Below, piece by piece: positions 9,924-23,647 of a DNA stretch of 23,647 nt. Location: positions 1-23,647 of IMG/VR virus record IMGVR_UViG_3300023444_000009. One strand, 5' to 3'. The notes beneath the pieces were generated by a model. It was not told where the DNA came from. It searched no databases and was given only the letters and a program-made list of their open reading frames with translations. Within the stretch, counting starts at the first letter, position 1; each line of letters begins with the position of its first letter. Source of the DNA: a virus. The translations under genes and the position numbers were made by a program.

Positions 9924-9924
9924 C

Positions 9925-10323: not shown

Positions 10324-10326
10324 ATC

Positions 10327-10526
10327 TTACCTCTCTTTCGCTACGAAGATGTAATCGATGCTCATAGTTTTTGAGACAGCTTCACCATTTTTAATGCCAA
10401 AGGAAATGGTGAGTTCTTCATCGTCAGGAAGATTGGTGATAATGGAGGATCAGGTTGCCCCATATCATAGAGAGTGCTAAATTTTGCAGCAGTAGATACG
10501 CCATTCGGCATGCGGGTTGAAGGCAT
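10327..10526 (-). pseudogene. small capsid-proximal gene split by a -1 frameshift
   Basis: A start at 10526 with a perfect GGAGGT seven bases upstream opens a frame reading MPSTRMPNGVSTAAKFSTLY then DMGQPDPP, and then drifts into an unrelated tail ending at 10362 (54 aa in all). Switching by one base near 10440 gives a continuation that reads like real protein, IITNLPDDEELTISFGIKNG then EAVSKTMSIDYIFVAKER, and stops at 10329, three bases before the next start. The two halves together would make a protein of about 65 aa. The second frame is closed by a TGA just before the switch point, so the window for a shift is only a few codons. There is no classic XXXYYYZ slip site, so a one-base deletion or sequencing error is likelier than programmed shifting. 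Confidence 0.6.
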
Positions 10527-10542
10527 ATAAGCTACCTCCATT

Positions 10543-10579
10543 CTTAAAATGAAAGCAGTGAGGGGGAAAGCCCCCTCAC
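10543..10579 (-). terminator. intrinsic terminator / attenuator after the major capsid gene
   Basis: On the minus strand a perfect 9-bp stem (GTGAGGGGG / CCCCCTCAC, 10558-10579) closes a four-base loop, and the sequence after it is T-rich (TGCTTTCATTTT). It begins about 20 bp after the capsid stop. A partial terminator here would raise capsid transcript levels relative to the downstream fibre genes, a common arrangement in phages. The T tract is interrupted, so read-through is expected. Confidence 0.65.
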
Positions 10580-10599
10580 CAGCTTAATTTGTATAAAGC

Positions 10600-11514
10600 T
10601 TACGCTCCAGGAGATCCGAAAATTCCTCGAGGATCAGACCAGCCACTCGCTGCACGCCAAGTGGTTTTGAACTTGGCATTCTCAGTGTCGAAGTCATTAT
10701 CCCTAGTGAATTCAGGTTTACGTCGCCAGAACCACGTAAGGCCATTCGGAACGTTAGTTTGGATAAACCAAGCATCCGGGTCAGTCAGGTAGTGCATGAC
10801 GATATGGCCTTCAGGGATCACTCCCATGGCAGCGGGGTTGATGTCGTTGTTGTTGGTCCCAGGTTCCTGAACAGACTTGAGAAGCTTCTGTGCATTCCAA
10901 TCATTCATGGGATGGACAATGAGCTTCTTCGCCCGCGCATTCATCTTAAGACCTTCATCACTCACAAACTCGCTAATGTCAATCAGCGCCTGTTCGAGGG
11001 ACGCGGCGTTAAGATCAGCAGCGGTGTCTAGTTCGTTACTCCAGGCGGAGCCACTGGTGCCGTAAACCGGATGATCCGTGGCACACAACTCTTTCCCATC
11101 ACCGCCAGTGTAAGAGTTGTTAAATGCGCGATTGAGATGATTGGCTGCAAGAGTCTCTTCCGTCTCACGGTTAGAGTTACTAAGTGCGCCAGGCATTTGC
11201 ATAAACTTGCGATACTGATCATCCTCAAGTAGTTCACGTTCCACAATGAAACCAAGACCATACGTGGTGTGAATGTAGGTAGTGTCGTATCCGTCATTCG
11301 CTTCGTCATATGCTACTGAATCGCCTCGTGGTTTCTCAGGCACGAGACCAAACATGCTGAAAGTGTGGTCACGTTCTTGGTAGCTATTGGACTTTTGAAT
11401 GTTAAATACTTGAGTGTATTCAGTAGGATACCGTTCGTAAGAATCTCCATAGAGCCTATGGAAGATAGGGTAAAATCCACGGAGAAATTTTTGGAATTGA
11501 GCAGAACTAAGCAT
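10600..11514 (-). CDS. major capsid protein, Mu gpT-like
   Basis: 304 aa, ATG with AAAGGAG upstream. It follows scaffold and a putative decoration gene, the normal place for the major head protein, and is followed by its own terminator hairpin. Features that suggest the gpT-type HK97-fold family are a Phe/Tyr-rich N-terminal arm (FLRGFYPIFHRLYGD), the helix TEETLAANHLNRAFN, the motif ELCATDHPVYGTSGSAWSNE, the strand KLIVHPMNDWNAQKLL, and the closing aromatic part TWFWRRKPEFTRDND ... RAASGWSDPRGIFGSPGA. Length agrees with gpT-like proteins (about 300 aa) and is shorter than P22 coat (430 aa). So the head seems to come from a different lineage than the P22-like tail genes. No prohead protease gene is seen, consistent with the separate scaffold. 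Confidence 0.82.
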   Translation of the reverse strand: MLSSAQFQKFLRGFYPIFHRLYGDSYERYPTEYTQVFNIQKSNSYQERDHTFSMFGLVPEKPRGDSVAYDEANDGYDTTYIHTTYGLGFIVERELLEDDQYRKFMQMPGALSNSNRETEETLAANHLNRAFNNSYTGGDGKELCATDHPVYGTSGSAWSNELDTAADLNAASLEQALIDISEFVSDEGLKMNARAKKLIVHPMNDWNAQKLLKSVQEPGTNNNDINPAAMGVIPEGHIVMHYLTDPDAWFIQTNVPNGLTWFWRRKPEFTRDNDFDTENAKFKTTWRAASGWSDPRGIFGSPGA

Positions 11515-11531
11515 TGGCTATTTCTCCTTTC

Positions 11532-12047
11532 TTATACCCCAGCGACCGCAGCGTTGAAGAAGTGTTCGGCGATGACCACTTCAAGCTCTACGTGCTCACC
11601 CCAATCATTTCCAGGTTTATCAATCTTACCCAGAATTTTCAACTGGCCACCAGTACCAATGTCGGAAGCATCAAGTTCGTGACCACTGATTTTCGTAGTG
11701 GACGAACCTGAGCCAGCTACGTGATTTGCGGTATTGAATACGTCTGCCGCCGTGGGCGCTGTGCCCGTATCAGCCTGACACCTAAAGGTGATGTAAGGAT
11801 CACACCAAACTGCAACCTTCACCCCACCAGCACTGGCGCTGTCGTCAGCGTAATGAGAAGCTACGCCAATGACGATAATACCATCATCGGCAGCCGCTGC
11901 CTGAACAGTACCACCAGCTACCACCTTAAGAAGATCGCCTTTATAGACAGTCTCTCCTGTGGTGAGGGTGAATTCTTTGGTGCGGATCTCTCCGCCCGCC
12001 AGATGTCGGTAGGCTTGGAAACCGATTACATTGTCAACGTTTGCCAT
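11532..12047 (-). CDS. putative head decoration/stabilisation protein
   Basis: 171 aa, start with AAAGGGGCAGG before the ATG, and stop 17 bp before the capsid start. The sequence is beta-rich with many Gly/Ala/Thr (TKEFTLTTGETVYKGDLLKVV, DDGIIVIGVASHYADD, GGVKVAVWCDPYITFRCQAD, GTGGQLKILGKIDKPGND) and contains two Cys. The pattern of a barrel followed by a repeat-like second half resembles capsid cement proteins that are encoded just before the major capsid gene in many tailed phages. The role is inferred from that place and composition. I see no enzymatic motif. Confidence 0.75.
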   Translation of the reverse strand: MANVDNVIGFQAYRHLAGGEIRTKEFTLTTGETVYKGDLLKVVAGGTVQAAAADDGIIVIGVASHYADDSASAGGVKVAVWCDPYITFRCQADTGTAPTAADVFNTANHVAGSGSSTTKISGHELDASDIGTGGQLKILGKIDKPGNDWGEHVELEVVIAEHFFNAAVAGV

Positions 12048-12068
12048 AACCTGCCCCTTTCTACATTA

Positions 12069-12539
12069 TTAATCTTGCTCTTGGTGGAACTCGTCTTCTA
12101 CGAGCCCCCCTCTTTTTGCACGTCTTCGGATGGAAGTGGTTTGTTGGTCGGTTTTCTTATCATAATAACGCTTGCGCGCTTCGATCCGAGCCAACGGCAT
12201 TTCGCACAATATCAAACCACGATACCGTTTCGTGCCATCAGATTGCGCGCCATCAATAATGGAGCGAGGTAGGACTAATTCTGTGTCCTCATATTTGTTG
12301 GGCCTCCAACCTTCGTTGTAGCGACGTTCGAATTGTTCGCCTTCTTCAACCCATCTAAGGCCCACGCCTCGGCGTGCTGCATCTTCCTTAATCTCCTTTG
12401 GGACATGCAGCGCGGACACTGGTTCCCACGATTCGTTCGTGGCTGCTTCTAATGCCGCTTCCTTTGTTTTAGCTGTGCGCCTCCGTTTCGGTTTGGGGGC
12501 GGGATTCTGTGCATTCACTTCATCTATTGTCATAGTCAT
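12069..12539 (-). CDS. basic hypothetical protein between scaffold and head genes
   Basis: 156 aa, ATG preceded by AAAGGAGTATGT. The N-terminal 35 residues are Lys/Arg/Ala/Pro-rich (KPKRRRTAKTKEAALEA) and probably disordered and nucleic-acid-like. The middle has a conserved-looking RRGVGLRWVEEGEQFERRYN then EGWRPNKYED, a segment typical of a small uncharacterised family found at this exact place in environmental phages. The C-terminal part is basic again (RKRYYDKKTDQQTTSIRRRA). It could help head assembly or bind packaged DNA. Function unknown. Confidence 0.75.
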   Translation of the reverse strand: MTMTIDEVNAQNPAPKPKRRRTAKTKEAALEAATNESWEPVSALHVPKEIKEDAARRGVGLRWVEEGEQFERRYNEGWRPNKYEDTELVLPRSIIDGAQSDGTKRYRGLILCEMPLARIEARKRYYDKKTDQQTTSIRRRAKRGGLVEDEFHQEQD

Positions 12540-12582
12540 TATACATACTCCTTTCTAATGTGTCAACTTATTGACACTTAAG

Positions 12583-13587
12583 TTAATGTACTTCTTTGAG
12601 GGACTTTAGATAGTCTTCCTCAGTTATTTTAAAGCCGAAACTGTTGGTGAGGTTGATGAGGCTACGTTCGAAATCGCCTATGGTTGCGGGAGCGCTTGAG
12701 TCATAGCCAGTTTGACGGTTACCTTCTACCCCATCCACAGGGGCGCGAGTTTCAGGGGAGTATTTGAAACGATTTTCGATAGTTTTTTTCACATAGGCAA
12801 GGCGTTCTGTGATGGGTTTTGATTGCCATTCAGGAGATTTAGAGAGTCTAACATCCAATGCAACTGCGGCGTCATACATGAGTGGGTCAGTGGGGTTATT
12901 TGCGTCACCAATCCATTCAGTGGAGGTGATGAAGGATTGGATGGCTTTAAGAGCTTCGGTGTCGAGTTGGGGGTCTTTGGGTTCGGTCTTGGTGGGATCT
13001 TCTTCAGAAATAGAAGCATTCTTCATCTCTTCCCTAAAGGCGCGGACTGCGAGCTTTGCATCCACCAATTGTTCAGTGAGGGTGGCCAGAGCGTCAGGAT
13101 CATCTGATGCGGCTGCTTCTTTAATCTGTGCCCGCAAGTCTGTGATTTTATTGATTAATGTAGTTTCTTTCTCACGCCTTTCTTGTGCGATGGCGGCATT
13201 TGCGGTTTGGTCAGCGCCTTGTTTCAACACCTTCGTCAAGGCGGTTTGCTGTTCAGCCATCTCCTTAATAGCATCTTGCATAAGTTTAAGTTCTTGCTTT
13301 AAAGTTTCATTCTCAGCTTTAGCGCGTTCACCTTCCTTTGCGGCAGCGTAAAGTTGGTTAAAGCGTTTAGTAGCTTTCTTTCCAGGCTTTCGTACTTTCC
13401 CATCATCATCAACCCACTCAATGTCATTTACAGTGAGGTCGGGTTTGTCAGAATCATCAGCATCTTTAGGTGGAGTGTCAGGAGGGTTGTCAGGTTTATC
13501 ATCCTCAACCTGCTTCATAACATGTTTAATTGCTTCATCAAAATCCATAGTGATTAGATCTTCGTCAGATACTTGCTTGTCTGCCAT
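12583..13587 (-). CDS. scaffold protein for head assembly
   Basis: 334 aa, starting from the TAATG shared with the co-chaperonin gene and with AGGAGGT upstream. The first 60 residues are strongly acidic and Pro-rich (EDDKPDNPPDTPPKDADDSD). Residues 75-200 are a long Glu/Lys/Ala/Gln helical region expected to form a coiled coil (EGERAKAENETLKQELKLMQ, RREKETTLINKITDLRAQIK). The end is a folded part with DFERSLINLTNSFGFKITEE. This acidic coiled-coil build, the size (P22 scaffold is 303 aa) and the place between portal and capsid are diagnostic for scaffolds, which guide procapsid assembly and then leave. No protease domain is visible. Confidence 0.85.
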   Translation of the reverse strand: MADKQVSDEDLITMDFDEAIKHVMKQVEDDKPDNPPDTPPKDADDSDKPDLTVNDIEWVDDDGKVRKPGKKATKRFNQLYAAAKEGERAKAENETLKQELKLMQDAIKEMAEQQTALTKVLKQGADQTANAAIAQERREKETTLINKITDLRAQIKEAAASDDPDALATLTEQLVDAKLAVRAFREEMKNASISEEDPTKTEPKDPQLDTEALKAIQSFITSTEWIGDANNPTDPLMYDAAVALDVRLSKSPEWQSKPITERLAYVKKTIENRFKYSPETRAPVDGVEGNRQTGYDSSAPATIGDFERSLINLTNSFGFKITEEDYLKSLKEVH

Positions 13588-13973
13588 TATTTGTCACCTC
13601 CTAATGCGTCTGTAAGAGTTTTCTTAGAGACGGGCTTAGGCAGAAATTCTTCTCTAACCACTCCAAGAATGTCTGCCTCATTCATGATTTGGTATTTAAT
13701 ATTTTCAACTTCAAGGTCTGCTGCAGCGTATCTGCCATAGTAAATATATTCACCTGGTTCAGTTGCTCCTACATCCGAACCAACTGCAACTACAAGGCCG
13801 ATGTTGGTTTTGAGTGTCCCATGGCGAGCTTCTTCCGGTACGTATAAACCTCCTTTGGTGAATTCTACCGTAGCGGGAATTACGAAGATTCGTGAGAAGG
13901 TAGGTTCGAAAGGAAAGTTGGCAACTAACTTCTCACTATCCAGAATGGTGATATCAGATAACATTGTACTCAT
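13587..13973 (-). CDS. GroES-like co-chaperonin
   Basis: 128 aa, start with GGAGGT six bases upstream, overlapping the previous gene by ATGA. The order of motifs follows GroES/Cpn10: RIFVIPATVEFTKGGLYVPE (strand, mobile-loop region and the GG-[IL]-x-[LV]-P motif, residues 28-47), IGLVVAVGSDV (58-68; GroES has GEVLAVGNG), PGEYIYYGRYAA (73-84), then YQIMNEADILGVV (94-106), which closely matches the GroES end LIMSESDILAIV. It carries about 20 extra N-terminal residues and an extension after the core. Phage co-chaperonins such as T4 gp31 adapt host GroEL to fold the capsid protein. Encoding it between portal and scaffold fits that job. Assembly into a GroEL cap is inferred. Confidence 0.88.
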   Translation of the reverse strand: MSTMLSDITILDSEKLVANFPFEPTFSRIFVIPATVEFTKGGLYVPEEARHGTLKTNIGLVVAVGSDVGATEPGEYIYYGRYAAADLEVENIKYQIMNEADILGVVREEFLPKPVSKKTLTDALGGDK

Positions 13974-14197
13974 TCACACACCTCCTTATTGGAATCTAAA
14001 GTTTGTATGATATGGATGGCGCGTTCGATGCCCTCAGAGATCAAAAGTAGGCTGCGTGGGCGGTCTCCGTCCACTAATGCCGAAGTTTTCGCTTCAAACA
14101 TTAGCTTACTTCCATCCTGCTTTAAATTTTTCAGAAGTGCTTGTGTGACTGGATGGTGGTTCCACTCCAGTACTTCTTCCTTCGTTACTTTCATCAT
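13970..14197 (-). CDS. 75-aa helical phage protein
   Basis: The start is chosen at 14197 (with another ATG at 14194) because GGGAGG lies six bases upstream; an earlier ATG at 14203 is too close to that site. The sequence opens MMKVTKEEVLEWNHHPVTQA, continues with LLKNLKQDGSKLMFEAKTSA, and ends in a helix with IERAIHIIQTLDSNKEVCE. Small helical proteins with a similar KVTKEEVLEWrxHPVT opening are common directly after portal genes in environmental phages. Their role is not known. It overlaps the GroES-like gene by four bases and so is probably translated together with it. Confidence 0.75.
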   Translation of the reverse strand: MMKVTKEEVLEWNHHPVTQALLKNLKQDGSKLMFEAKTSALVDGDRPRSLLLISEGIERAIHIIQTLDSNKEVCE

Positions 14198-14297
14198 ACG
14201 CATCCTCCCATGGACGTCCCCAGTCTATATGATCCCAATTGGCCTCCCATTCTGGGGTAGGGCAGCGAGACCTGGGCGTGTTGTCATGGTGTGGCAT
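14106..14297 (-). CDS. possible 63-aa protein overlapping portal and the 75-aa gene
   Basis: The ATG lies within the last codons of the portal gene (14-bp overlap), and the frame runs 92 bp into the following gene. The first 35 residues look protein-like and unusual, rich in Trp, Asp and Glu (PEWEANWDHIDWGRPWEDAY). The last third lies over the next gene and reads like an out-of-frame tail (Ser/Thr/Pro-rich). No clear ribosome site is present, so it would depend on coupling to portal translation. Without it there is an unfilled gap of about 85 bp after portal, which is long for this operon. Real or chance is about even. Confidence 0.35.
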   Translation of the reverse strand: MPHHDNTPRSRCPTPEWEANWDHIDWGRPWEDAYDESNEGRSTGVEPPSSHTSTSEKFKAGWK

Positions 14298-16422
14298 TGA
14301 CTGCTTGAGATGAGGCAGCTTGGCGTTGGAGAGCTGCTTGGCGCTGGGCCAGGATTTGGTTGCGTTGTTGTGGAGGCATGGTAGCTAGTAGGTAGGCGTT
14401 TGCCTCAGTGCTGAGGATGTGGCGCTCTAAAAGTTTCTTCCCAATGGGGGTTAGGATTGAGTCATATTGTTCGAGGAACTGACGATGTGTGACTAGATGA
14501 GCGTCATGGTCCTGATGGATGAGAGATTCTACATTTTGTTCGCGTAGGAAAGTGGCATTTTCTTCATGCGGCCCCAAGTCTGGTGGAGGGGGAGGGGGCT
14601 GGATGAGGGCGTTCTGATCCTGCTTTGCTACGTCCATCGCTTCGTAAAAGAGTTTGCGAGCGTTCTGAACTACGTTAGGGTTAGCTTGTGTGTGGGGATT
14701 GTTCATTACTTCTTGGTAGACTGCTTGAGCTTTGGTGAGGCGTTCAGCCCGGCTAATGATGTTAGGATCAGAGACTGGAATTACATCAATATTAGGGGAG
14801 AAATCGCGCCCCAAAATTTCCAACACCCTGGGGTCTTGCCCCACTCTAAAATCGCCAAGGATCGCCACATATTCTTCCTTGTTAATGAAAATGGAAAGAA
14901 GGCGATAGATTTTCTTAAGTTCGCGAGCAAAGTTGGCGTGGGTGCGTTTATGAATGGCGCTGAAGAGTTTGCGATTCTCTTCCAGCACAGCGAGAACTGC
15001 TCCTCGTGCTGTGTCACTGGATGGCATCACACCTGTGCTGGCTTCGCTTACTGTGGATACTTGTTTAGCATAGTCGAAGAGCATGCCCAAGATTTGGAAA
15101 GATGCGGGACTGGGACCTTCGAATTTATGGTCATAAAAAGCGTTTTGCAGGTTATCTACCCAAGCATCCAGAGGTTGGTAAACTCCCATTTTAAGATCAA
15201 GGCTACCTTGATCGATGCCTGCGCGAGTAGAGTAAAAGCCTCCACGCTGGTTGGCTAGGGTGGTTGCATCTACTACATCCCGCATCATCCTGTTGGCGGC
15301 GTAGTTGATGCCGCGTAGGAGAGAGCCAAGGCCTAGGCCGTAGAAACCATCAGGGTTGGGAATAAAATCATAATGGGTGAAATATTCAAGAATAGTTTCT
15401 TTCCCAAATGCGTCAAAGGCTCGGCGGGAAGTGATGCGGAAGACTTGTTCTGTTTCCAGATCTACTGTGATAACGTAAGGTTCGAGGATACCATCATTGT
15501 TAAGATCCCACCAACGATGTTGTTCGAGGACTAATCTGGGACGATTGTAGGGTTCGTTAGGTTCTTCAACCCCAGAAACTTCATCCCCAATGTCCTTGAT
15601 GACAGAAGTGTTGGTTTGGGTGCCAGGGCCGAGATTGGCTGCTGTGGGAAGATAGAGTCTCGCTTTCACCATACGATTAATTTCGTATTGATCGCGGTAA
15701 AGGATGTGGGTGATGCGTGAGGCGGATTCGAGATCTTTAGCGTGATATGAGACAACTACATCGCGAGCTGAGCAGTATTCAGAAACTACTCTGCCCAAGG
15801 TGGAGCTGTAGTAGGTTTTGCGGAAGATAGATCCATGTACTGGGAGTTGGATAAGGGACCTATCCATACCTGGGATAAACTCTTCCATCTTATGTCGGAG
15901 AAGGTAGTTCATATAATGTCCGACGCGTTGAGCTTTATCGCGGTCTTCGTGGCCTGTGAAAACGGTGTTGACTATGTCTTTGGCAGGGATGAGGGCTTCG
16001 TAGGCGCGTGCGTGAAATTGGAGGCATGCGATAGTGATGAAGGGAAGGGCGATTACAGAGCCATTCTCGGATTGTTCGTCAGAGGCGTTGGCGTATTGAG
16101 TGAAATGGCGTACTTGTTCAGCCACTTGCTCTTCCCACACTTGCCTGGACGTCATATCGCGTTTATATTCTTCCACCACCACAGAACCCATCTCTTTGAG
16201 GATCTCAGGCCCAGTTTTCTTGTCATTGCCTATGTAGGAAGGAAACATTGGAGATTCTTGTTGAGCTACATAGAAGGCAATATTTACTGTTTCAGGAGCG
16301 TTAATGGCGTTAATGATGTCTTCTTTGGAAAGAATTGTGCCATCTTTGGTAGCAACTATGCCAGCGCGTTTACTTTCAGCAACGGTTGGTTCTTCGATCT
16401 TTATTGGTAATTTCTCTCCCAT
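14284..16422 (-). CDS. portal protein, P22-like
   Basis: 712 aa (P22 portal is 725 aa), ATG with GTAGGAGG upstream, directly after the large terminase. The early part carries SRQVWEEQVAEQVRHFTQYA and the helix FHARAYEALIP, a wing region with SRITHILYRDQYEINRM, then the stem/clip core, with YGLGLGSLLRGINYAANRMM and VVDATTLANQRGGFYST. After that comes VSTVSEASTGVMPSSDTARG, typical of large podoviral portals. The C-terminus has a Pro run (PPPPPPDLGPHEE) followed by a long Gln/Ala helix (PPQQRNQILAQRQAALQRQA) that would form the barrel inside the head. The portal is the 12-fold ring through which DNA is pumped and ejected. Confidence 0.88.
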   Translation of the reverse strand: MGEKLPIKIEEPTVAESKRAGIVATKDGTILSKEDIINAINAPETVNIAFYVAQQESPMFPSYIGNDKKTGPEILKEMGSVVVEEYKRDMTSRQVWEEQVAEQVRHFTQYANASDEQSENGSVIALPFITIACLQFHARAYEALIPAKDIVNTVFTGHEDRDKAQRVGHYMNYLLRHKMEEFIPGMDRSLIQLPVHGSIFRKTYYSSTLGRVVSEYCSARDVVVSYHAKDLESASRITHILYRDQYEINRMVKARLYLPTAANLGPGTQTNTSVIKDIGDEVSGVEEPNEPYNRPRLVLEQHRWWDLNNDGILEPYVITVDLETEQVFRITSRRAFDAFGKETILEYFTHYDFIPNPDGFYGLGLGSLLRGINYAANRMMRDVVDATTLANQRGGFYSTRAGIDQGSLDLKMGVYQPLDAWVDNLQNAFYDHKFEGPSPASFQILGMLFDYAKQVSTVSEASTGVMPSSDTARGAVLAVLEENRKLFSAIHKRTHANFARELKKIYRLLSIFINKEEYVAILGDFRVGQDPRVLEILGRDFSPNIDVIPVSDPNIISRAERLTKAQAVYQEVMNNPHTQANPNVVQNARKLFYEAMDVAKQDQNALIQPPPPPPDLGPHEENATFLREQNVESLIHQDHDAHLVTHRQFLEQYDSILTPIGKKLLERHILSTEANAYLLATMPPQQRNQILAQRQAALQRQAASSQAVNATP

Positions 16423-16431
16423 ATAATCCTC

Positions 16432-18054
16432 CTACTCAAGTCGAGCGACGGTGATGGTTTTGGTCTTTTTACGCAACATGCGTTGGGTTGTTGTGTCTTC
16501 TTGGCGAATGCGCTCACGCTTCCATTGTGGGTCGATGAGGATGAGACGGTATAAGTTTTCCATCATATGGTCATCCTTGTCAACTGGGGTTTGTTTTTCT
16601 CCTCTGTTGGAAGATTTAACCCAATCATCCCAAACGAAGTGGGCAATTTCGTAGCGGAATCTGGTGCAGTTATCTGCTACATAAATTCCCGGGCGTTCTT
16701 GCTCATCAAGTTCAAAGAGCTTTTGCGTTCTGATTATACCATTTGTGGGGTCTTTAGGGGCCTTAATTATAGGACATATGATGCAATTGCGGACCATGGC
16801 TTTGTTAAATTCGGTAGCGAAATCACTCCCTCCACCCAGAATATCGGGGCTCCATGCGAGAGGGTCTACTAGAATGATCTCTGGGATGCGGCCACGGAGT
16901 TTTTCCTTAATGCGCTCTGCCAGCTCTTCCGGAGAGGCTTGGATGAAAAGTTCGTCAACGATGAAAAGAGGGCCCCCGCGTTGGGCTGCGAGGAATAGGA
17001 CAGCATGAGGAGTGCGTGGATGGGGGTCTACGGCGACGTAGATGGTGAAGTCATAAACGCTCTCACCACTGTGCCACCATGAGCCACCCTGGACTAGGTG
17101 GCGATGATCAGAGTATTCTTTGTAGACCAGACCACTGAGGAAGATGAACTTACCCTTACCTCGAACAATGCGTTCTTCCCTGGTATAGTCGTTGAGGATC
17201 TCAATGGCGTCTTTCTTGCTGATAATGGGGTTGTCTATGAGAGATTGGAAGAAGACGTGGATTTGGGGGTTACCTACGCCATTTTCACCTTCGGGGATGA
17301 TGATATCACGATAGCCTACATGCTGGATGTCAATGAGGCGTCCAGTGGTTGGGTCTTCAACGAAATCGTATTCATTTTCAACTTCACGCCCTCGTTTGAG
17401 GTAGATGGTGTCGTAGAGATGCTGCATAGCTCCGCTAATGGGGGTGAGGGAGAAGGTCATCTCACCTGCGGTGTCAATGATGCGGGCTTTATTCTCTTTA
17501 TGAATGTCCTCTGGAGGTTCTTCATCATATCCTATGCTGTGGCGGGATGCGCCTGCGAATTTTTGATCATCCTGAGAGTAGAACATGAATTCGATGAAAC
17601 CACCCTTCTCATTCTCAATGGACTGAACATGGCCTTGGAATTTGATAACTGCTTTAATTTTATCTGAGGGGATGAGTTGTTGAATGTGGGGCCAGATTAC
17701 CTTGTCAAAGAAATTGGGGCGGTCGATCATGCAAAAGCGGAGGCGACGAGTTTGGTCCAGACGGTGTTTGGGGATGGTGCCTTCTAGGGCGGGGGGAACT
17801 TCCCCTGTGAATTGAATGGCGTAATCCATGATGTGAGAGTAAGATTTGCTGGAGCGGTTGGCCCCAAAGACTGCGCGATAGCGTGCGTTGGAAGCATGGT
17901 AGGCTTTGGCGACGATTGTAGGTTCGTAGAGATGGAATTTAGTGTCAGTGCGGCTGGCGAGGTCGTCTGTGGCCTTAACCAGCTTAAATAACTCTTCCTT
18001 TGACATGCGGGCGAGGGCTGTTTCAAGCTCTTCCAGATCGAGCAGGTTACTCAA
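16432..18054 (-). CDS. terL: terminase large subunit (packaging ATPase-nuclease)
   Basis: 540 aa. The start is TTG at 18054, inside the terminase small subunit stop region (8-bp overlap) with GAGGG about ten bases upstream. A first ATG only comes 16 codons later without a site. The ATPase half has Walker A GANRSSKS (64-71) and Walker B IGYDEEP (174-180), followed by the coupling motif FSLTPISG (201-208). The RNase H-like nuclease half has the acidic residues in YVAVDPHP (Asp343), FIVDEL (Asp368), ILVDPLAW (Asp397) and the closing DKDDHMMENLYRL (492-504). All key residues are present. It pumps DNA through the portal and cuts the concatemer. It is the first clearly typed gene of the late operon. 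Confidence 0.95.
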   Translation of the reverse strand: MSNLLDLEELETALARMSKEELFKLVKATDDLASRTDTKFHLYEPTIVAKAYHASNARYRAVFGANRSSKSYSHIMDYAIQFTGEVPPALEGTIPKHRLDQTRRLRFCMIDRPNFFDKVIWPHIQQLIPSDKIKAVIKFQGHVQSIENEKGGFIEFMFYSQDDQKFAGASRHSIGYDEEPPEDIHKENKARIIDTAGEMTFSLTPISGAMQHLYDTIYLKRGREVENEYDFVEDPTTGRLIDIQHVGYRDIIIPEGENGVGNPQIHVFFQSLIDNPIISKKDAIEILNDYTREERIVRGKGKFIFLSGLVYKEYSDHRHLVQGGSWWHSGESVYDFTIYVAVDPHPRTPHAVLFLAAQRGGPLFIVDELFIQASPEELAERIKEKLRGRIPEIILVDPLAWSPDILGGGSDFATEFNKAMVRNCIICPIIKAPKDPTNGIIRTQKLFELDEQERPGIYVADNCTRFRYEIAHFVWDDWVKSSNRGEKQTPVDKDDHMMENLYRLILIDPQWKRERIRQEDTTTQRMLRKKTKTITVARLE

Positions 18055-18628
18055 CTATCGTACCCTCTATCACATCTTTTTTCACTGTTTCAGGTTTATC
18101 TTCGGGAATAACTATCTCAATGGCGTTCGCATCCTCCAACGCCTTCTGCTTCGCCATTTCCTCCTCCTTTTTTCGCATAACCCTACCCAAGATCATTTTT
18201 CTCAATTCAGCCTCAGTCATGTGAACATGGTCAACTTGCACCGAACCTCCCACATCAACCTTCTGCCGCATTACAGCGCCATGACCAGCCCTGTCCAAGA
18301 TATCCCCCGCGACCTTATTCGCCAACTCTTGGGATTGTGTGGTGAGGAGGATTTCTTCTTTCTTCTTAAGAGCGATAGGAGCGAGATTAGCCAACTCTTT
18401 CCTCACATCCAACATACCTTCAGTCATACTCTCCTGCAGGGCCAATAATTCCCTCTTGAAGAGGGGCGAAGCCATCACTGCTTTGACTTTCTCAACGCTA
18501 GCGTCGAGGGTGGCAGCTATTTCCTTGGGGGCCTTCCCAAGAGCAGCAAGGCGCAGCACCGTGCCATGATAAAGCAACCTATCAACTGTAAGACTTTTGG
18601 GTGTGTTAGGATCTACATTATCTGCCAT
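18047..18628 (-). CDS. terS: putative terminase small subunit
   Basis: 193 aa from the ATG at 18628, with GGAGG upstream; a longer frame from 18679 would run through the likely promoter. Residues 31-52 form a helix-turn-helix (GKAPKEIAATLDASVEKVKA), followed by SPLFKRELLALQESMTEGML, a pattern usual in TerS N-terminal domains. A helical oligomerisation part follows. The C-terminus is Lys/Glu-rich (RKKEEEMAKQKALEDANAIE) and ends in an acidic tail. TerS binds the packaging site and recruits the large subunit. The gene order and 8-bp overlap with terL support the call, while sequence similarity to a named TerS is not visible by eye. Confidence 0.75.
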   Translation of the reverse strand: MADNVDPNTPKSLTVDRLLYHGTVLRLAALGKAPKEIAATLDASVEKVKAVMASPLFKRELLALQESMTEGMLDVRKELANLAPIALKKKEEILLTTQSQELANKVAGDILDRAGHGAVMRQKVDVGGSVQVDHVHMTEAELRKMILGRVMRKKEEEMAKQKALEDANAIEIVIPEDKPETVKKDVIEGTIVE

Positions 18629-18648
18629 ATACATCCTCCGTTTCACAC

Positions 18649-18677
18649 AGTATAGCATAGTTTGAGAAGAGTGTGCC
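18649..18677 (-). promoter_or_regulatory. candidate late-operon promoter (extended -10)
   Basis: Read on the minus strand, TGCTATACT (an extended -10, TGnTATACT; hexamer at 18649-18654) lies about 20 bases before the terS start. The -35 position 17 bases upstream is weak (GGCACA), which an extended -10 can offset. The 5' leader would be only about 15 nt, enough for the GGAGG site. Activation by a phage factor is possible. Confidence 0.4.
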
Positions 18678-18683
18678 ATATTT

Positions 18684-18713
18684 TTGACACCCTCACCTCC
18701 CTTATGCTATCAT
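18684..18713 (+). promoter_or_regulatory. candidate rightward sigma70 promoter
   Basis: A perfect TTGACA (18684-18689) is followed after 18 bases by TATCAT (18708-18713) with a TG one base before it (TGCTATCAT). The first transcribed bases would be near 18720. It faces away from the terminase promoter, the two being about 30 bp apart, and would transcribe the C-rich repeats, leader ORF and GC-rich gene block to the right. Confidence 0.5.
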
Positions 18714-18724
18714 CCTTATGGGGT

Positions 18725-19231
18725 GGGGAACGCAGCTCCCCTAAATCCTTTTAACTCCATCTGCGATTGCGGCCCACCCATCCTCCTCCTGGGGCCGCCC
18801 CCACCCCACCTCCCTTACCTCCCTTACCTCCCTTAGCTTAATGCAAACTTACCTACCTTAATACAACTTTGTACATCAAAAATCGGCCCAATTATTTCAG
18901 AGGAGGGATCCAATCAATAATACACTGGCCTCCCTCCCCTCCCCACCCCCCTCGCGCGTGGGCGGGCGCGCGAATCATTTAGGCACACGCGAGCGTATTA
19001 GGGGGGTGTGGCGTTAAAAACACAGGAAAAATGGTGGAAAATCAAGGGGTTGCAGAGGGGTGTGGCGTAGATGCAACAATGTGAGGCGTTTGTGCTACAG
19101 TGAGTTGAGCTGAGGAAGGATGCGGACTACAACATGTTGGGGTGTGGGCGGGGTGAGGTACAAGATGTGAAATGGCATGGTAGATGCATGTAGAATGGCG
19201 TACATAGGTCCACGTCCTGGAGGCGAGGAAC
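18725..19231 (+). other. divergent intergenic region with hairpins and C-rich tracts, no gene seen
   Basis: No convincing gene is visible on either strand. In order it holds: a GGGGA/TCCCC hairpin followed by T-rich sequence (18725-18750), a possible attenuator; a 7-bp GCGGCCC/GGGCCGC hairpin whose loop is CCTCCTCCT (18769-18798); the 9-bp tandem repeats; a pyrimidine-only tract near 18928-18953; a 7-bp TCGCGCG/CGCGCGA hairpin (18952-18973); and two copies of GGGGTGTGGCGT (19003-19014 and 19057-19068) with a related GGGGTGTGGGCG near 19138. The region is likely regulatory for the rightward unit. Confidence 0.55.
18808..18835 (+). repeat. 3x tandem ACCTCCCTT, anti-Shine-Dalgarno-like
   Basis: The 9-bp unit ACCTCCCTT occurs three times head to tail (808-816, 817-825, 826-834), and a fourth ACCTCCCTTA lies at 18695-18704, inside the spacer of the rightward promoter. 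The unit differs by one extra C from ACCTCCTTA, the conserved 3' end of 16S rRNA that pairs with ribosome sites. A rightward transcript would therefore carry several sequences complementary to the GGAGG sites used by most genes of this phage. Confidence 0.8.
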
Positions 19232-19270
19232 ATGGCTGTTACAGCCAGAAAAACCTTGCTAACGTTTTAG
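19232..19270 (+). CDS. 12-codon leader peptide
   Basis: An ATG with GGAGG eight bases upstream (and GAGG closer) encodes MAVTARKTLLTF and stops with TAG at 19268-19270. The start lies at the edge of one hairpin and the stop lies in the right arm of a second, while the ribosome site of the next gene follows 10 bases later. This is the layout of a translated leader that opens or closes a downstream site. The peptide has no obvious run of one amino acid. It may equally be a chance ORF. Confidence 0.4.
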   Translation: MAVTARKTLLTF

Positions 19271-19275
19271 CAAGG
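19233..19275 (+). promoter_or_regulatory. two hairpins ahead of the 123-aa gene
   Basis: TGGCTG-tta-CAGCCA (19233-19247) is followed by the perfect 9-bp stem CCTTGCTAA-cgtt-TTAGCAAGG (19254-19275). The AAGGAGG ribosome site begins six bases later. A ribosome on the leader peptide would melt both stems. There is no U tract, so this is more likely translational control or mRNA protection than termination. Confidence 0.6.
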
Positions 19276-19297
19276 CGAAAAAGGAGGAAAAAAGAGA

Positions 19298-19669
19298 ATG
19301 GTAATAAGATTTACAGAGGGGTTCATCGCCGACGAGCACACTCGTCGAGCGATCACGCGCCGCACGAAGGTGCGGCTCCCCGAAATCCCGCATCAGTGGG
19401 ACTTCGCGGCTTGCCGTGCGTGGAAACGGCAAGCGGTACAGGCTTTAATGGCCCAAGGATGGGCCATCATTTCAGGGAGGCTCGAGGAGGAGAAGAACCT
19501 TCCGCCAGTAGCTTTCCGTGCTGTGGAGACGGCGCGGAAGCAGTTACGGAAGGAATCCGTCCGTCACGCGGTGAGGCGCGCCCAGGAGGGGTATTACGCT
19601 TTCGGCGGGAGAATTGAGACCGCCGAAGTGCAGGAAAGTATTCTGAAAGGTCTTAAGGCCCTTCTTTAG
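19298..19669 (+). CDS. 123-aa basic protein of unknown function
   Basis: ATG with AAGGAGG ten bases upstream. The protein is basic, with Arg-rich segments (DEHTRRAITRRTKVRLPEIP, FRAVETARKQLRKESVRHAV), a Trp-containing helix (WDFAACRAWKRQAVQALMAQ) and a C-terminal amphipathic helix ending in KGLKALL. A nucleic-acid-binding role is plausible but not shown. GC content is much higher than in the gene block further right. The coding DNA contains at least five strong stem-loops (for example 19330-19347, 19359-19376, 19409-19434, 19448-19467, 19601-19627). A frame of 146 aa overlaps on the same strand in another phase but has a poorer start. A small GCCC/GGGC stem at the stop codon may begin termination. 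Confidence 0.65.
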   Translation: MVIRFTEGFIADEHTRRAITRRTKVRLPEIPHQWDFAACRAWKRQAVQALMAQGWAIISGRLEEEKNLPPVAFRAVETARKQLRKESVRHAVRRAQEGYYAFGGRIETAEVQESILKGLKALL

Positions 19670-19726
19670 GGGCGTAATCCCTTCTTGTCGTAATCCCTTC
19701 TTAATCAGGTCTTCGTTCGGTCGAGG

Positions 19727-19756
19727 GGTCCCCAAGCTACGGTTTGGGGATCTTTT
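19727..19756 (+). terminator. intrinsic terminator after the 123-aa gene
   Basis: GGTCCCCAAG pairs with TTTGGGGATC (about ten pairs including two G-U, loop of six), followed directly by TTTT at 19753-19756. It sits about 60 bp after the stop codon and before the next ribosome site. The short U run suggests partial termination. Two copies of CGTAATCCCTTCTT lie just upstream (19673-19702). Confidence 0.7.
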
Positions 19757-19794
19757 CGTATAAAGTGGCCAATTCTATATGAAAGGAGGCGTCT

Positions 19795-20151
19795 ATGCTG
19801 CCCTGTGAAGGCCAGGCACACGGACTTTGTACCATATGCCATATCTGCTACATATGCCATAGGCAGACGTATGTAGCATGCCAGCGCAAGACCGCACGCA
19901 AGCACATGCGAAGGCGGAAAGGTATACCGGCGGAGGTCTATGTGCATTCGTGGCATTCAAAGATCCACGAATGGCCGGGGTTACCTGGGCACATCAGGTA
20001 TTCGTCCGGCGGGTATGAACATACCCGCTATATGTGTGGATGTGATCGCACATACGTCGCAGTGCCGACGAACGTAGGGCCGTATTATGAATTGGTTAAA
20101 TGGGCCCAATGCAACCGGCATTACGGCAAACCTGACTGCAATAACGATTGA
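19795..20151 (+). CDS. 118-aa Cys/His-rich protein, likely zinc-binding
   Basis: ATG with AAAGGAGG five bases upstream. It has ten Cys (4, 12, 15, 18, 21, 29, 81, 83, 106, 115) and many His. Residues 12-21 are a ladder of CxxC steps (CTICHICYIC), residues 30-42 are strongly basic (QRKTARKHMRRRK), and the second half has MCGCDRTYV and CNRHYGKPDC. The mix of metal-binding clusters and a basic patch suggests a small nucleic-acid or protein-binding zinc protein, as phages often use early to redirect host machinery. No family is recognised. The gene contains stem-loops at 19847-19877, 19945-19973 and 20009-20028. Confidence 0.7.
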   Translation: MLPCEGQAHGLCTICHICYICHRQTYVACQRKTARKHMRRRKGIPAEVYVHSWHSKIHEWPGLPGHIRYSSGGYEHTRYMCGCDRTYVAVPTNVGPYYELVKWAQCNRHYGKPDCNND

Positions 20152-20160
20152 CTGTTCTTC

Positions 20161-20341
20161 GGGTCTTCCGCCCACGCGGAAGGCCCTATAGAGTAGTTAA
20201 TCTACTCTCTCATCGTCTCATGACGGCGATGTAAGTTCTTTGCGTGACATACCGCGTATGCGGGGGTGAAGTAGGCTCTACTGACACATATGCGCGACCG
20301 TAGGTCGGCGTGCCAGAGAGCAGGATTACGCGATAAGCGTA
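20161..20341 (+). promoter_or_regulatory. multi-hairpin leader RNA before the 213-aa gene
   Basis: The 200-bp gap holds seven stem-loops in a row: GGGTCTTCCGC/GCGGAAGGCCC (11 pairs with one G-U, 20161-20186), AGAGTAG/CTACTCT (20190-20208), CATCG/CGATG (20211-20231), CCGC/GCGG or alternatively CATAC/GTATG (20248-20263), AGTAG/CTACT (20270-20282), CGACC/GGTCG (20295-20307) and TACGC/GCGTA (20327-20341). The last ends next to the GGAGG site. None is followed by a U tract. I see no known riboswitch or tRNA. The 20248-20263 pair are mutually exclusive, so switching is conceivable. Confidence 0.6.
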
Positions 20342-20353
20342 TGGAGGGGTATC

Positions 20354-20995
20354 ATGAGTAAACTGTATGTGATTAAGGCAGGGGCCTCAATGGGCGAGGC
20401 GGACGAGTACAAGCCGTCCGCAGAACGTATTGCAGAGATTCGCGATCTTTGCAATATCGAAGCCCAGGCTGGGCGCGGCGCGCGAGACGCCACCCTCGCT
20501 GTGGCGAAAGCCGTCGCTCGGGAATTGGTTCCAGGCGTGACCGCGAAGATGATTGCGGATTCTAACGTCTTTAAAGCCGATGGGGGTACGCCATACAGTC
20601 GATCCACCATTGATCTGTATGGAAAGCTTGGAAAGGAAAGTGCTTACTGGCCGACATTCTTTAACGGCGGTTTTGCCGCATGGAGGAAGGCCCGGCGAGA
20701 TGCTGAATACGCAGCAAACCCGGAAAAGGCTGAGCGTAAGAAGGTTCTTCAGAAAGCCAAGGCGCTTACCAAGGCGGTGGAGCAAGAAGTTAAAGGATTT
20801 AAGGAATTGTTCCGTTTTCTCCCATTCGATCAATTGGTAGAGCAGTTAGCTGCCAGGTTCGGGAGCGACCTGGATTCGTGGACGGATTTCAGTGAACAGG
20901 TCACTGAAAAAGTGGTTGCAACCATGGAAGCCGAGCAGGAGCAGGAGCAGGAGCAGGAGCAAAATACTGAAAACGTAAAGGTGGTGAATGCGTAA
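20354..20995 (+). CDS. 213-aa helical protein with C-terminal (EQ)5 repeat
   Basis: ATG with ATGGAGGGG upstream. Residues 15-60 look like a folded helical domain (ERIAEIRDLCNIEAQAGRGA, LAVAKAVARELVPGVTAKMI). Residues 78-110 are aromatic and basic (PYSRSTIDLYGKLGKESAYW, FAAWRKARRDAEY), followed by a Lys/Ala helix (NPEKAERKKVLQKAKALTKA), FLPFDQLVEQLAARFGSDLD, and a low-complexity acidic tail with five Glu-Gln units. It could be a DNA-binding early protein; I recognise no family. It is followed at once by a strong terminator and preceded by the multi-hairpin leader, so it may be a separately regulated gene. Hairpins also lie inside the gene (20399-20421, 20887-20909). Confidence 0.75.
   Translation: MSKLYVIKAGASMGEADEYKPSAERIAEIRDLCNIEAQAGRGARDATLAVAKAVARELVPGVTAKMIADSNVFKADGGTPYSRSTIDLYGKLGKESAYWPTFFNGGFAAWRKARRDAEYAANPEKAERKKVLQKAKALTKAVEQEVKGFKELFRFLPFDQLVEQLAARFGSDLDSWTDFSEQVTEKVVATMEAEQEQEQEQEQNTENVKVVNA
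20933..20962 (+). repeat. GAGCAG hexamer microsatellite, 5 units
   Basis: Four GAGCAG units and a final GAGCAA follow each other in frame and encode (Glu-Gln)5 near the end of the 213-aa protein. The near-identical units show that it grew by slippage and probably varies in length between related phages. Confidence 0.9.
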
Positions 20996-21020
20996 TCCAT
21001 AACGCGCACCATCTCACTTA

Positions 21021-21052
21021 AACCCTATGGGGAAACCCATAGGGTTATTTTT
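21021..21052 (+). terminator. strong intrinsic terminator
   Basis: A perfect 11-bp stem AACCCTATGGG / CCCATAGGGTT closes a GAAA tetraloop, followed by ATTTTTT. It lies 25 bp after the stop of the 213-aa gene and marks the end of the GC-rich transcription unit. No T-run lies on the other side in the opposite direction, so it is mainly one-way. Confidence 0.92.
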
Positions 21053-21079
21053 TAACATTACATATTTGATATGGTGAAT

Positions 21080-21126
21080 GCTAAAGCTTTAGCAAAATGT
21101 ACGATATTGATATCGTATTGCGCAAT
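21080..21126. promoter_or_regulatory. three adjacent palindromes, possible operator
   Basis: GCTAAAGCTTTAGC (21080-21093), ACGATA-ttga-TATCGT (21101-21116) and ATTGCGCAAT (21117-21126) follow each other within 47 bp, just after the terminator and about 85 bp before the next gene. Dyads of this size suit dimeric repressor binding. Promoter elements here are not clear, so the operator reading is an inference. Confidence 0.4.
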
Positions 21127-21209
21127 TTCGATAGGATATGGACGTTAAAACGAAGAATGTTGTTACGACAATCAAACTGATTGGTTAACGCTTTTGAAAG
21201 GGGAATAAA

Positions 21210-21332
21210 ATGAAAGGATTCATAGCGTTACTAGTTAAACTTTTCTGGACCTACATCATGACTGTTTTAGCGGGTATTGGTTGGTTGGGATTGGATGCGA
21301 TTTTAGAGTTATGGAGAATGAATGGGATATGA
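21210..21332 (+). CDS. 40-aa single-span membrane peptide
   Basis: ATG preceded by AAAGGGG. The peptide opens MKGFIALLVKLFWTYIMTVL and continues AGIGWLGLDAILEL, so residues 4-30 form one hydrophobic span, and it ends in a short charged tail (ELWRMNGI). Phages encode many such early membrane peptides, some of which are toxic or exclude other phages; nothing here says which. A 15-codon frame overlaps the stop as ATGA and ends in a weak hairpin (GTGTAG-gatatg-CTACAC, 21371-21388) followed by a T-rich stretch, which may terminate this short unit. Confidence 0.6.
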   Translation: MKGFIALLVKLFWTYIMTVLAGIGWLGLDAILELWRMNGI

Positions 21333-21474
21333 TGCATGAAGATGCATTTGAAAAGGATGGGATGGTTAAGGTGTAGGATATGCTACACTAGACTTATTTT
21401 ATCCTATTTCCTTGGAGGCAAGATAGGCACGCGAATTTGAGTGGGTTTGAGTGGGTTTTGATAAGATAATGTGC

Positions 21475-21513
21475 TTTAATGACATTAATGCGTCATAATG
21501 ACGATAATGACAG
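21475..21513 (+). repeat. left iteron cluster, AATGAC repeats
   Basis: Four AATG(A/C)-type units follow at a spacing of 9-10 bp: AATGACATT, AATGCGTCAT, AATGACGAT, AATGACAG. The final 19 bases ATAATGACGATAATGACAG (21495-21513) recur exactly in the right cluster at 21752-21770. Confidence 0.75.
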
Positions 21514-21708
21514 CCAAAGTGAAGGTATTGTGTGCGTGTTTTGGGGAGGAAGTAAGATAGGGTAATTTAGTTATTATTTATATATATAAATATATATATT
21601 AGATATATATTATCTTATTTATAATTTATATATAGATAATAACACCATATTTACCCCTAAATTTACCCTATTACACTCTCATAATCGCGCACAACACCTT
21701 CATTTAAG

Positions 21709-21817
21709 TGTCATTATAGCGCATTAATGTCATTATCCCGCATGATGCACTATAATGACGATAATGACAGTTTTTTGTACAAAAATGTGTGTCATTAACG
21801 TCATTTTAACGCATTAT
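21709..21817. repeat. right iteron cluster, inverted and direct TGTCATTA units
   Basis: The stretch contains TGTCATTATA (21709-21718), CATTAATGTCATTAT (21722-21736), the 19-base copy ATAATGACGATAATGACAG (21752-21770) and GTCATTAACGTCATTTTAAC then GCATTAT (21791-21817). Units occur in both orientations, so this half is internally symmetric, unlike the left cluster. Confidence 0.75.
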
Positions 21818-21837
21818 CTCAAGCGAAGGAAGGGCAA

Positions 21838-22002
21838 ATGAACGATTTTACCAAACATCACTAACGCAAACTTGCTAAACTCGTTAGCAAATACATCTAC
21901 ATTGATCATAAAGGGAGGAGAGTAAGACCGTTCATCTCTCTTACCAAACTATCTAAACAACACCCAGTACTTGTTAGTGATATTAAGTTAGTCTTATTGT
22001 AA
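21838..22002 (+). pseudogene. 54-codon gene interrupted by an in-frame TAA at codon 9
   Basis: An ATG with AAGGAAGGG upstream gives MNDFTKHH, then TAA (21862-21864). The same frame then continues for 45 codons as RKLAKLVSKYIYIDHKGRRV, RPFISLTKLSKQHPVLVSDI, KLVLL, before a second TAA at 22000-22002. The downstream part is compositionally protein-like, has no internal ATG and no own ribosome site. A single C-to-T change (CAA to TAA) would explain the break. Read-through is the alternative. TAA is a normal stop elsewhere in this window, so a changed genetic code is not supported. Confidence 0.5.
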
Positions 22003-22055
22003 GCAAGATTGTTAGATTTTTCGCAAACCTAATCCACGTTGGCAGGGAGATGATA

Positions 22056-22298
22056 ATGAATAAATACGCATACTATAACATTAAAACAGGAAAAAGAGTA
22101 CGTGTTGATATTTCGTTGAAAGAATTGGGATGGTTTGGACGTAACCTATCAAATCATGAACATTCAAAGATTATTTGTCCTAATGTCGGTGTGCCTGGGC
22201 ATCATGGTTGTGGCTGGTGTTGGGAACACAATCGCCCACGTAACCAATGTACATATGACTGTCATGTCACGCGCAAAGAGCTTCTCACTTCCTCATGA
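22056..22298 (+). CDS. 80-aa small protein with Cys cluster
   Basis: The start at 22056 is preferred over 22050 because GGGAG lies six bases before it. The first half is basic (MNKYAYYNIKTGKRVRVDIS). The second half carries a Cys/His cluster (IICPNVGVPGHHGCGWCWEH, then RPRNQCTYDCHV) with five Cys and several His, which suggests one or two zinc sites. No family is recognised. It is followed by a small hairpin and then another well-started gene, so it sits in a run of short early-type genes. Confidence 0.65.
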   Translation: MNKYAYYNIKTGKRVRVDISLKELGWFGRNLSNHEHSKIICPNVGVPGHHGCGWCWEHNRPRNQCTYDCHVTRKELLTSS

Positions 22299-22305
22299 GA
22301 GGAAT

Positions 22306-22323
22306 TCCCTTCATAAGAAGGGA
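22306..22323 (+). other. intergenic hairpin
   Basis: A perfect 7-bp stem TCCCTTC / GAAGGGA closes the loop ATAA, eight bases after the stop of the 80-aa gene. There is no U tract behind it, so it is more likely an mRNA end-stabiliser or processing site than a terminator. Confidence 0.6.
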
Positions 22324-22376
22324 TATTACAGTAATGCCCGCCCTTTAAAATATAGGTGGGTAAGTAGGAGGTTGAT

Positions 22377-22724
22377 ATGATTATCAACAAAACAAGTGAT
22401 GTGATTATGGGAGAAAGCAAATCTGGTTTGCCTATCCCCAAACCCGAAACCACCATTGTTCGTTTTGAACACTCCCTCCGCACAGACAAGATATCTATCT
22501 ACACCCTTCAGCACGTTGGGAAGAATTGGAGGTGGTGTAACCTTCTCACTCCCAATTACTCAAAGGGAAAGTTTCGCACCATCGAAGCCGCTGTGGAAGA
22601 TGTGTTGGGCAAAGGTACCACGGATGTGGTAGAACGTGTTGTTGCCCAGATTCACGTCCATTCCTTGGGACAGGTTATGACTGCAAATAACTTTCTTCAT
22701 GTGTTGCATGATGTGTTGTTTTAA
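22377..22724 (+). CDS. 115-aa hypothetical protein
   Basis: ATG with an excellent AGGAGG five bases upstream. Segments include TTIVRFEHSLRTDKISIYTL, HVGKNWRWCNLLTPNYSKGK, FRTIEAAVEDVLGKGTTDVV and a helical end (VMTANNFLHVLHDVLF). It looks like a small soluble alpha/beta protein. The stretch with FRTIEAAVEDVL resembles the helix of small phage proteins that act on host factors, but I cannot name a family. Its stop is followed within 10 bp by a structured region. Confidence 0.7.
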   Translation: MIINKTSDVIMGESKSGLPIPKPETTIVRFEHSLRTDKISIYTLQHVGKNWRWCNLLTPNYSKGKFRTIEAAVEDVLGKGTTDVVERVVAQIHVHSLGQVMTANNFLHVLHDVLF

Positions 22725-22730
22725 GTTTAA

Positions 22731-22809
22731 CCTTACCCATTAAAGTAAGGGAACGTTGGTGGGAAGGTGGATTGTTTAGCAAAACCCAACCGCTAATATC
22801 CACCTTCCC
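22731..22809 (+). ncRNA. tandem hairpins with a long composite stem
   Basis: First CCTTAC-(8 nt)-GTAAGG (22731-22750), then a perfect 12-bp stem GGGAAGGTGGAT / ATCCACCTTCCC (22761-22772 with 22798-22809). Inside its loop TTAGC pairs with GCTAA, giving about 17 pairs in all. It fills almost the whole gap between two genes and lacks a U tract. It may be a small regulatory RNA, an mRNA stabiliser or a protein-binding element. The apical loop (AAAACCCAACC) would be the exposed part. Confidence 0.5.
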
Positions 22810-22831
22810 CCATCTCACCTAGGGGGATAGA

Positions 22832-22969
22832 ATGACTTACATTATGGAACGTTTTTCATATAGGAAAGGTTGGGCAAGATACTCCCTTACCGCCTCTGAC
22901 TATATTAAGTATGGGAAGAGGTTAAGAGAATTAGGGTTTAAATTGGTAATCTTTCCACCGGGACCTTAA
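22832..22969 (+). CDS. 45-aa small basic protein
   Basis: ATG with AGGGGGAT upstream. The sequence opens MTYIMERFSYRKGWARYSLT, continues ASDYIKYGKRLRELGFKLVI and ends FPPGP. It is basic, aromatic and has a short helix followed by a strand. The strong ribosome site and the place in a run of short genes make it likely real. Its TAA stop lies in the same frame as the next gene, 21 bp before that start, so one sense change at the stop would join the two. Confidence 0.6.
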   Translation: MTYIMERFSYRKGWARYSLTASDYIKYGKRLRELGFKLVIFPPGP

Positions 22970-22990
22970 GAATTTACAACAAGTAACCTT

Positions 22991-23266
22991 ATGCAACAAG
23001 TTAAAGGCATTCTCATCATTCGTAAAGCGAACAATATCGAATGGATGTTCAACATCCGTGTTCAACATACCAAATGGAACATCACTGGCGGTCCATACGC
23101 TAACAAATACACCGCCCGCACCAGTGGGGTGAATTGTGCTAATGAGTTTACCATTCGCCTCATTAACATTCCAAAATGGAATCAACCTAAGTTTAATAAT
23201 AAAAGAAAGGGATTGCATTGCCAGTCTCTTGATAGAAACTGCACTGATATGCCTGACATAAACTAG
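22991..23266 (+). CDS. 91-aa hypothetical protein
   Basis: The frame opens at an ATG with no clear ribosome site, only a distant A-rich stretch, so translation may depend on the gene before it. The sequence contains GILIIRKANNIEWMFNIRVQ, HTKWNITGGPYANKYTARTS, NEFTIRLINIPKWNQPKFNN and a Cys-containing end (HCQSLDRNCTDMPDIN). Its strand pattern (two beta hairpins and a short helix) suggests a small beta-rich fold. No family is recognised. An overlapping minus-strand frame (22931-23218) was judged a shadow. Confidence 0.55.
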   Translation: MQQVKGILIIRKANNIEWMFNIRVQHTKWNITGGPYANKYTARTSGVNCANEFTIRLINIPKWNQPKFNNKRKGLHCQSLDRNCTDMPDIN

Positions 23267-23327
23267 GAACTAGGATAGAGGTAGAAGACGATGCTTGAAA
23301 CCGATAATTTTAATTGTGGAGATTAGT

Positions 23328-23647
23328 ATGGAAATAAGACTGCGCGGACGTTCAAGGGATAATGGCAAAGATTTGTTTTACCACAATGCTATTGCCGAAA
23401 TATACCACAGTGTAAAAAGCGGCCTGCTGATGGGGTTTGCCGGATACGATGAAAATACAAAAAAACCTGTTTTGCTCGACATAGAAATGGACACTGGGTT
23501 TACCGATGCGAACGGAGCTGAGATCTGGGAACATGACACAATAAAGTGGGCGGATTCAGTTATTTATACTGTTGTATGGTGGCCTGAGCGGGGATGCTGG
23601 GCAGCTGAAACAGATAACACTTTGATCCCACTTTATGAACTGGAACC
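23328..23647 (+). CDS. YopX-family protein, cut by the right edge
   Basis: ATG with GTGGAG six bases upstream, open for 106 codons to the window end. The opening EIRLRGRSRDNGKDLFY and the later MDTGFTDANGAEIWEHDTIK, followed by YTVVWWPERGCWAAE, match the two hallmarks of the YopX family (IKFRGxxxDNGxW...YTGLKDKNGKEIYEGDIV...V.W). YopX-like proteins are small phage and prophage proteins whose function is not known. Only the very C-terminus is missing, judging by the family length of about 120-150 aa. Base composition seems less AT-rich than the preceding short genes. An 11-codon frame lies just before it (23291-23326) and overlaps its ribosome site. Confidence 0.8.
   Translation, partial: MEIRLRGRSRDNGKDLFYHNAIAEIYHSVKSGLLMGFAGYDENTKKPVLLDIEMDTGFTDANGAEIWEHDTIKWADSVIYTVVWWPERGCWAAETDNTLIPLYELE

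Follow-up and report, generated by a model that had tools for sequence, protein, structure and literature searches.

Short hairpins chained through a probably early gene block of a tailed phage, with probable selection on its mRNA for folding

Genome-scale ordered RNA structure (GORS) of RNA viruses and the structured coding RNA of RNA phages are among the closest parallels to the locus described here. To our knowledge, RNA viruses are the familiar case of coding regions that fold pervasively, and DNA phages hardly offer examples. Hairpin promoters of the N4 type are repeated, conserved short hairpins with a small loop, and the RNAs GOLLD and ROOL are frequent in phage or prophage DNA. Both are large, ornate and highly structured RNAs (PMC12286853), and the leader and operator hairpins of T4 are phage mRNA hairpins with known roles (PMC3014915).

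The locus lies in an IMG/VR virus record of 23,647 bases, which was analysed in full (the window) and is probably part of a larger genome. The source virus is a tailed phage; genes for terS, terL, an SU10-like portal, a head protein and a connector form a leftward set from 18679 down, and the best match to terL in the viral scan has 51% identity. The features of the rightward block are as follows.

18684 to 18713, plus strand: promoter-like TTGACA-18-TATCAT with TG before the -10 (11 of 12 matches, by consensus only)
19254 to 19275, plus strand: 9-bp perfect hairpin just 5' of the orfA Shine-Dalgarno (SD) sequence; its minus-strand reading is terminator-like
19298 to 19669, plus strand: orfA, 123 aa, basic, SD AAGGAGG, without homologue
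19727 to 19757, plus strand: terminator-like hairpin TCCCCAAGCTACGGTTTGGGGA, then TCTTTTC, 3' of orfA (from sequence and fold)
19751 to 19787, plus strand: hairpin of 15 pairs (three G.U), predicted by folding to cover the orfB SD
19795 to 20151, plus strand: orfB, 118 aa, Cys/His-rich, with hairpins 19846-19878, 19945-19973 and 20009-20028, without homologue
20146 to 20202, plus strand: hairpin of 24 pairs (four G.U) across the orfB stop codon, containing the stem 20161-20186
20354 to 20995, plus strand: orfC, 213 aa, with hairpins 20428-20456 and 20887-20909, without homologue
21021 to 21046, plus strand: intrinsic terminator closing the block (11-bp stem, GAAA loop, then ATTTTTT)

A rightward transcript would begin near 18720, from the promoter-like sequence, which was the top of six hits (shuffles expect 6.0). 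At 21021-21046 a T run comes directly after a G+C-rich stem, as in an intrinsic terminator, and a terminator scan made no call at 19727-19757. Positions 18720-21046 would form the first rightward unit, running from a host-type promoter to an intrinsic terminator, with timing and transcript ends predicted; judged by position and promoter, this unit is probably early. Near copies of CCCTTACCTCCCTTA occur four times in 18690-18835, one inside the promoter spacer, and CGTAATCCCTTCTT stands twice in perfect tandem directly 3' of orfA (19673-19702), before the terminator-like hairpin. Rightward of the terminator the sequence is AT-rich and carries an imperfect inverted repeat of 37 nt (21466-21502 versus 21710-21746), a TATATA core between its arms and repeated TGTCATTATxxCGCAT units; this region (21466-21840) is likely an origin of replication or a regulatory region. 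One relative (L005) has a comparable stretch, with TATATA and ATCATC, at about 5200-5560.

The initial annotation listed nine perfect stems of at least 8 bp between 18725 and 21046 and put the chance expectation below one. All nine are present, with loops of 3-15, where 200 dinucleotide shuffles gave a mean of 0.34 (sd 0.55, maximum 2); at 7 bp or more, 17 stems were found against 1.3 expected. The stem listed as 19847-19877 reaches 9 bp as 19846-19878, and that at 20161-20186 has the 11 pairs reported, one of them G.U. As had also been noted, most stems lie in open reading frames: seven of the nine are inside genes (three in orfA, three in orfB, one in orfC), against 0.1 expected in the gene sequence of the window. 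The impression that the late genes lack this density held as well, with 5 stems against 2.7 expected over 17.4 kb (1239-18679). The end of the window (21051-23647) is also somewhat enriched (6 versus 0.58), mainly through AT-rich palindromes at 21579-21759.

Clear enrichment is limited to short-range inverted repeats with loops of up to 15. Between 19200 and 20230, inverted repeats of 7 bp numbered 12 against 0.73 expected with loops of 3-15, 2 against 1.1 with loops of 16-40, and 4 against 5.1, without enrichment, with loops of 41-150. In the same segment, neither mirror repeats (1 versus 0.7) nor direct repeats at gaps of 16-150 were enriched, and short-gap direct repeats (3 versus 0.8) were inside the shuffle range. 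An artefact of composition is ruled out by the dinucleotide shuffles together with the mirror and direct repeat controls.

Folding energies followed the same pattern. In a span-limited fold the block gave z-scores of -9.6 on the plus and -8.3 on the minus strand, and three late segments folded in the same way gave -1.5 to +0.9. Taken separately, 19200-19760 had a z-score of -8.2 and 19760-20360 one of -5.1. Mean z in sliding windows of 120 nt was -1.9 (plus) and -1.8 (minus) for the block, and -0.3 and -0.2 for the late genes. The hairpin proposal, which would have fallen had the block folded no better than the rest of the genome, thus came through this comparison.

The fold of orfA relies on its synonymous codons. 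This gene is covered by about ten local hairpins (including 19409-19434, 19448-19467 and 19601-19627), and in shuffles that held amino acids and codon counts fixed its z-score was -4.9, with none of 300 shuffles as low; other runs gave -4.6 and, with other tiles, -4.0. Five of 252 control genes from related and reference phages also fell below -4, which makes the value of orfA extreme without setting it apart if this measure is taken by itself. It has the lowest energy of 266 sampled phage genes (-53 kcal/mol per 120 nt), a sample that includes genes of 68% GC. Late genes of the window, in the sense direction, were at or above -1.8 in one run and -2.8 in another. For orfC the codon-preserving z was moderate (-1.2 to -2.7 by method). 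For orfB it was marginal (-0.8, -1.5 or -2.8) and varied with tiling and method, and because of this dependence on tiling we do not claim codon-preserving selection for folding there. The hairpin across the orfB stop codon has a predicted energy of -33.4 kcal/mol and a mean pair probability of 0.99.

We considered whether the open reading frames are genes at all. Good SD sequences precede all three, and GC by codon position fits coding in orfA and orfC, which weakens a purely non-coding reading of the block; in addition, just three of 1000 shuffles yield one open reading frame of at least 115 aa with an SD. The coding score of orfC (+0.23) is comparable to that of the late genes, that of orfA is barely positive, and orfB scores below its other two forward frames. 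Single-sequence structure predictions were poor (mean pLDDT 54 for orfA, 51 for orfB). No homologue was found for orfA, orfB or orfC in viral contigs, for orfA or orfC among phages, for orfC in plasmids or 39 records of relatives, or for orfA in genome contigs; the collections searched held no DNA homologous to the block, and scans with the portal and orfE found no nearer relatives. Searches of the block for tRNAs and against Rfam, Pfam, PHROGs, NCBIfam and PDB produced no convincing match. At gathering thresholds no Rfam family matched, including GOLLD, ROOL and OLE, and the best weak match (ar14, minus strand) reached 29.3 of the 58.8 bits required.

To place the block among phages we used 131 sequences (about 2 Mb), including T7, N4, lambda, part of T5, SU10 and 14 long relatives. 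In stem density the window ranks first in the set over both 1 kb (7 stems; runner-up 5) and 2 kb (9 stems; runner-up 6). T7 (39.9 kb) has no perfect stem of at least 8 bp with a loop of 3-15 and arms of at least two G or C, far below other phages. In 52 distinct relatives aligned on terL (25-51% identical), the number of stems was 0.9-1.5 times that expected within 6 kb downstream of terL and 2.6-4.0 times that expected 2-5 kb upstream, the upstream excess being 2.9-fold outside genes versus 1.9-fold inside. Because this excess is milder and mostly outside genes, a mild abundance of hairpins upstream of terL is typical of these phages, and the in-gene density is special to the source phage. 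In one relative (L102:984-2400, from G021) the small leftward genes that lie upstream of terS are separated by gaps, each with a hairpin of 8-12 bp, several of which have similar GG-CAGG/CCTG-CC arms. In another (L005:6750-9350) the 866-aa terL contains an insertion, a few hundred residues long, that starts near CLSAGTMIRLANG, ends near VFALENGLLVSN and looks like an intein.

Defects in the stems bear on which molecule was selected. Among stems perfect except for one position, the defect was G.T in seven, A.C in three and another mismatch in six (shuffles 0.7, 0.7 and 2.7; A.C and G.T about 1:1 at 0.7-0.8 each). A G.T defect is paired in plus-strand RNA, and A.C is paired in minus-strand RNA only. 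The surplus of G.T over A.C was larger than in all 80 shuffles at 7 bp, in 79 of 80 at 6 bp and in just 71 of 80 at 8 bp with two defects; it rests on ten stems, and 7:3 by a plain binomial would be non-significant. The open reading frames, promoter and terminator are on the plus strand, the same as the favoured sense RNA. The antisense strand folds almost as strongly as the sense strand, and good folding of both strands is expected because the stems are perfect. Sense-strand RNA is moderately favoured over DNA as the selected molecule. Of four meanings originally offered for the hairpins, RNA structure overlapping the genes gains support from the codon-preserving shuffles (orfA, less so orfC) and from the preference for G.T over A.C, and protection from nucleases by folding is a possible, putative role. 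Recognition of the hairpins by a single sequence-specific RNA-binding protein is not favoured, no sequence being common to stems or loops. Single-stranded DNA hairpins as promoters or entry sites are less favoured, and no repeated promoter-like hairpin was seen. N4-type hairpin promoters were rejected (no sequence shared by stems or loops, loops of 3-15), as were guide-RNA arrays of CRISPR or TIGR type (no direct-repeat array in 19170-21050).

Other explanations would account for part of these observations. A large structured RNA, either non-coding or with a dual function, over about 19200-20210, with orfA and orfB incidental or secondary, would suit the very strong fold of 19200-20360, the low coding scores of these two genes and the failure to find protein homologues; we consider it unlikely in view of their strong SDs, rare in shuffles, the gene-like codon-position GC of orfA and the lack of an Rfam match. 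Slightly less likely are DNA-level hairpins acting in entry, replication or packaging of single-stranded phage DNA and adjoining the likely origin at 21466-21840. The near-equal folding of both strands and the position of the block between terS and the AT-rich inverted repeats would fit such a role, whereas the G.T preference of the defects, the lack of a common stem sequence and the location of most stems inside genes argue against it.

The pattern could also be non-adaptive, if template-switch copying had perfected imperfect palindromes in this part of the genome. Stems that are nearly perfect, short-range, unrelated in sequence and strong on both strands are what such copying would leave, yet it explains neither their confinement to one transcription unit nor the G.T bias, and long-gap direct repeats are not raised; we regard it as improbable. 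Least probable in our estimation, and quite unlikely, is that a small cassette of early genes has simply gathered terminators, attenuators and processing sites in the ordinary way. This reading has in its favour that 21021-21046 is a terminator and that in relatives such as L102 and L064 the small genes upstream of terL have hairpins in the gaps between them; the great majority of the perfect stems, however, lie in genes, far beyond expectation there.

Our preferred reading, held with slightly less than even confidence, is that 18720-21046 is the first, probably early, unit and yields a translated mRNA selected to fold. That the block mRNA has been selected to fold is by itself probable, because its hairpins exceed chance, the phage's own other genes and about 2 Mb of phage DNA. 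This mRNA would give three small proteins and would have been under additional selection for chained short local hairpins, strongest over orfA. Such folding would shield the early message from ribonucleases and set relative translation, with the starts of orfA and orfC in open gaps and that of orfB covered (predicted unpaired probability 0.76, 0.62 and a mean of 0.19, respectively, versus about 0.37 around). The closed orfB start, under the hairpin 19751-19787, fits translational control of that gene as modelled, and the intergenic share of the hairpins would be ordinary terminators and processing hairpins. A stronger proposal, which we find possible if doubtful, is that a dsDNA phage has a hairpin-chained early message that is both translated and structurally functional (nuclease-resistant or trans-acting), its synonymous codons having been selected to suit that fold. 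Should the block fold in the cell, resistance to decay or the setting of translation may be what shapes early phage messages, and RNA structure may partly dictate the protein sequences of two uncharacterised genes. The block is a clean experimental object, via synonymous recoding of orfA.

The small-gene cassettes of relatives (L102, L064, L005 and HTVC023P) share the genome position of the block and an excess of 2.6-4.0-fold, and differ in that their hairpins are mostly intergenic and far less dense. GOLLD and ROOL are unlike the block, which has no Rfam match, open reading frames with SDs, and simple local hairpins. The mRNA hairpins of T4 resemble it in lying near start sites, with possible translational control of early messages, but the known cases are one or two at start sites and the block is a chain through gene bodies. 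With GORS and the coding RNA of RNA phages it shares many local coding stems without common sequence and a coding-sequence energy well below shuffles (z -9.6 for the block, -4.9 codon-preserving for orfA); whereas GORS is spread genome-wide, here the structure occupies one early unit of a dsDNA phage and is absent from the late genes.
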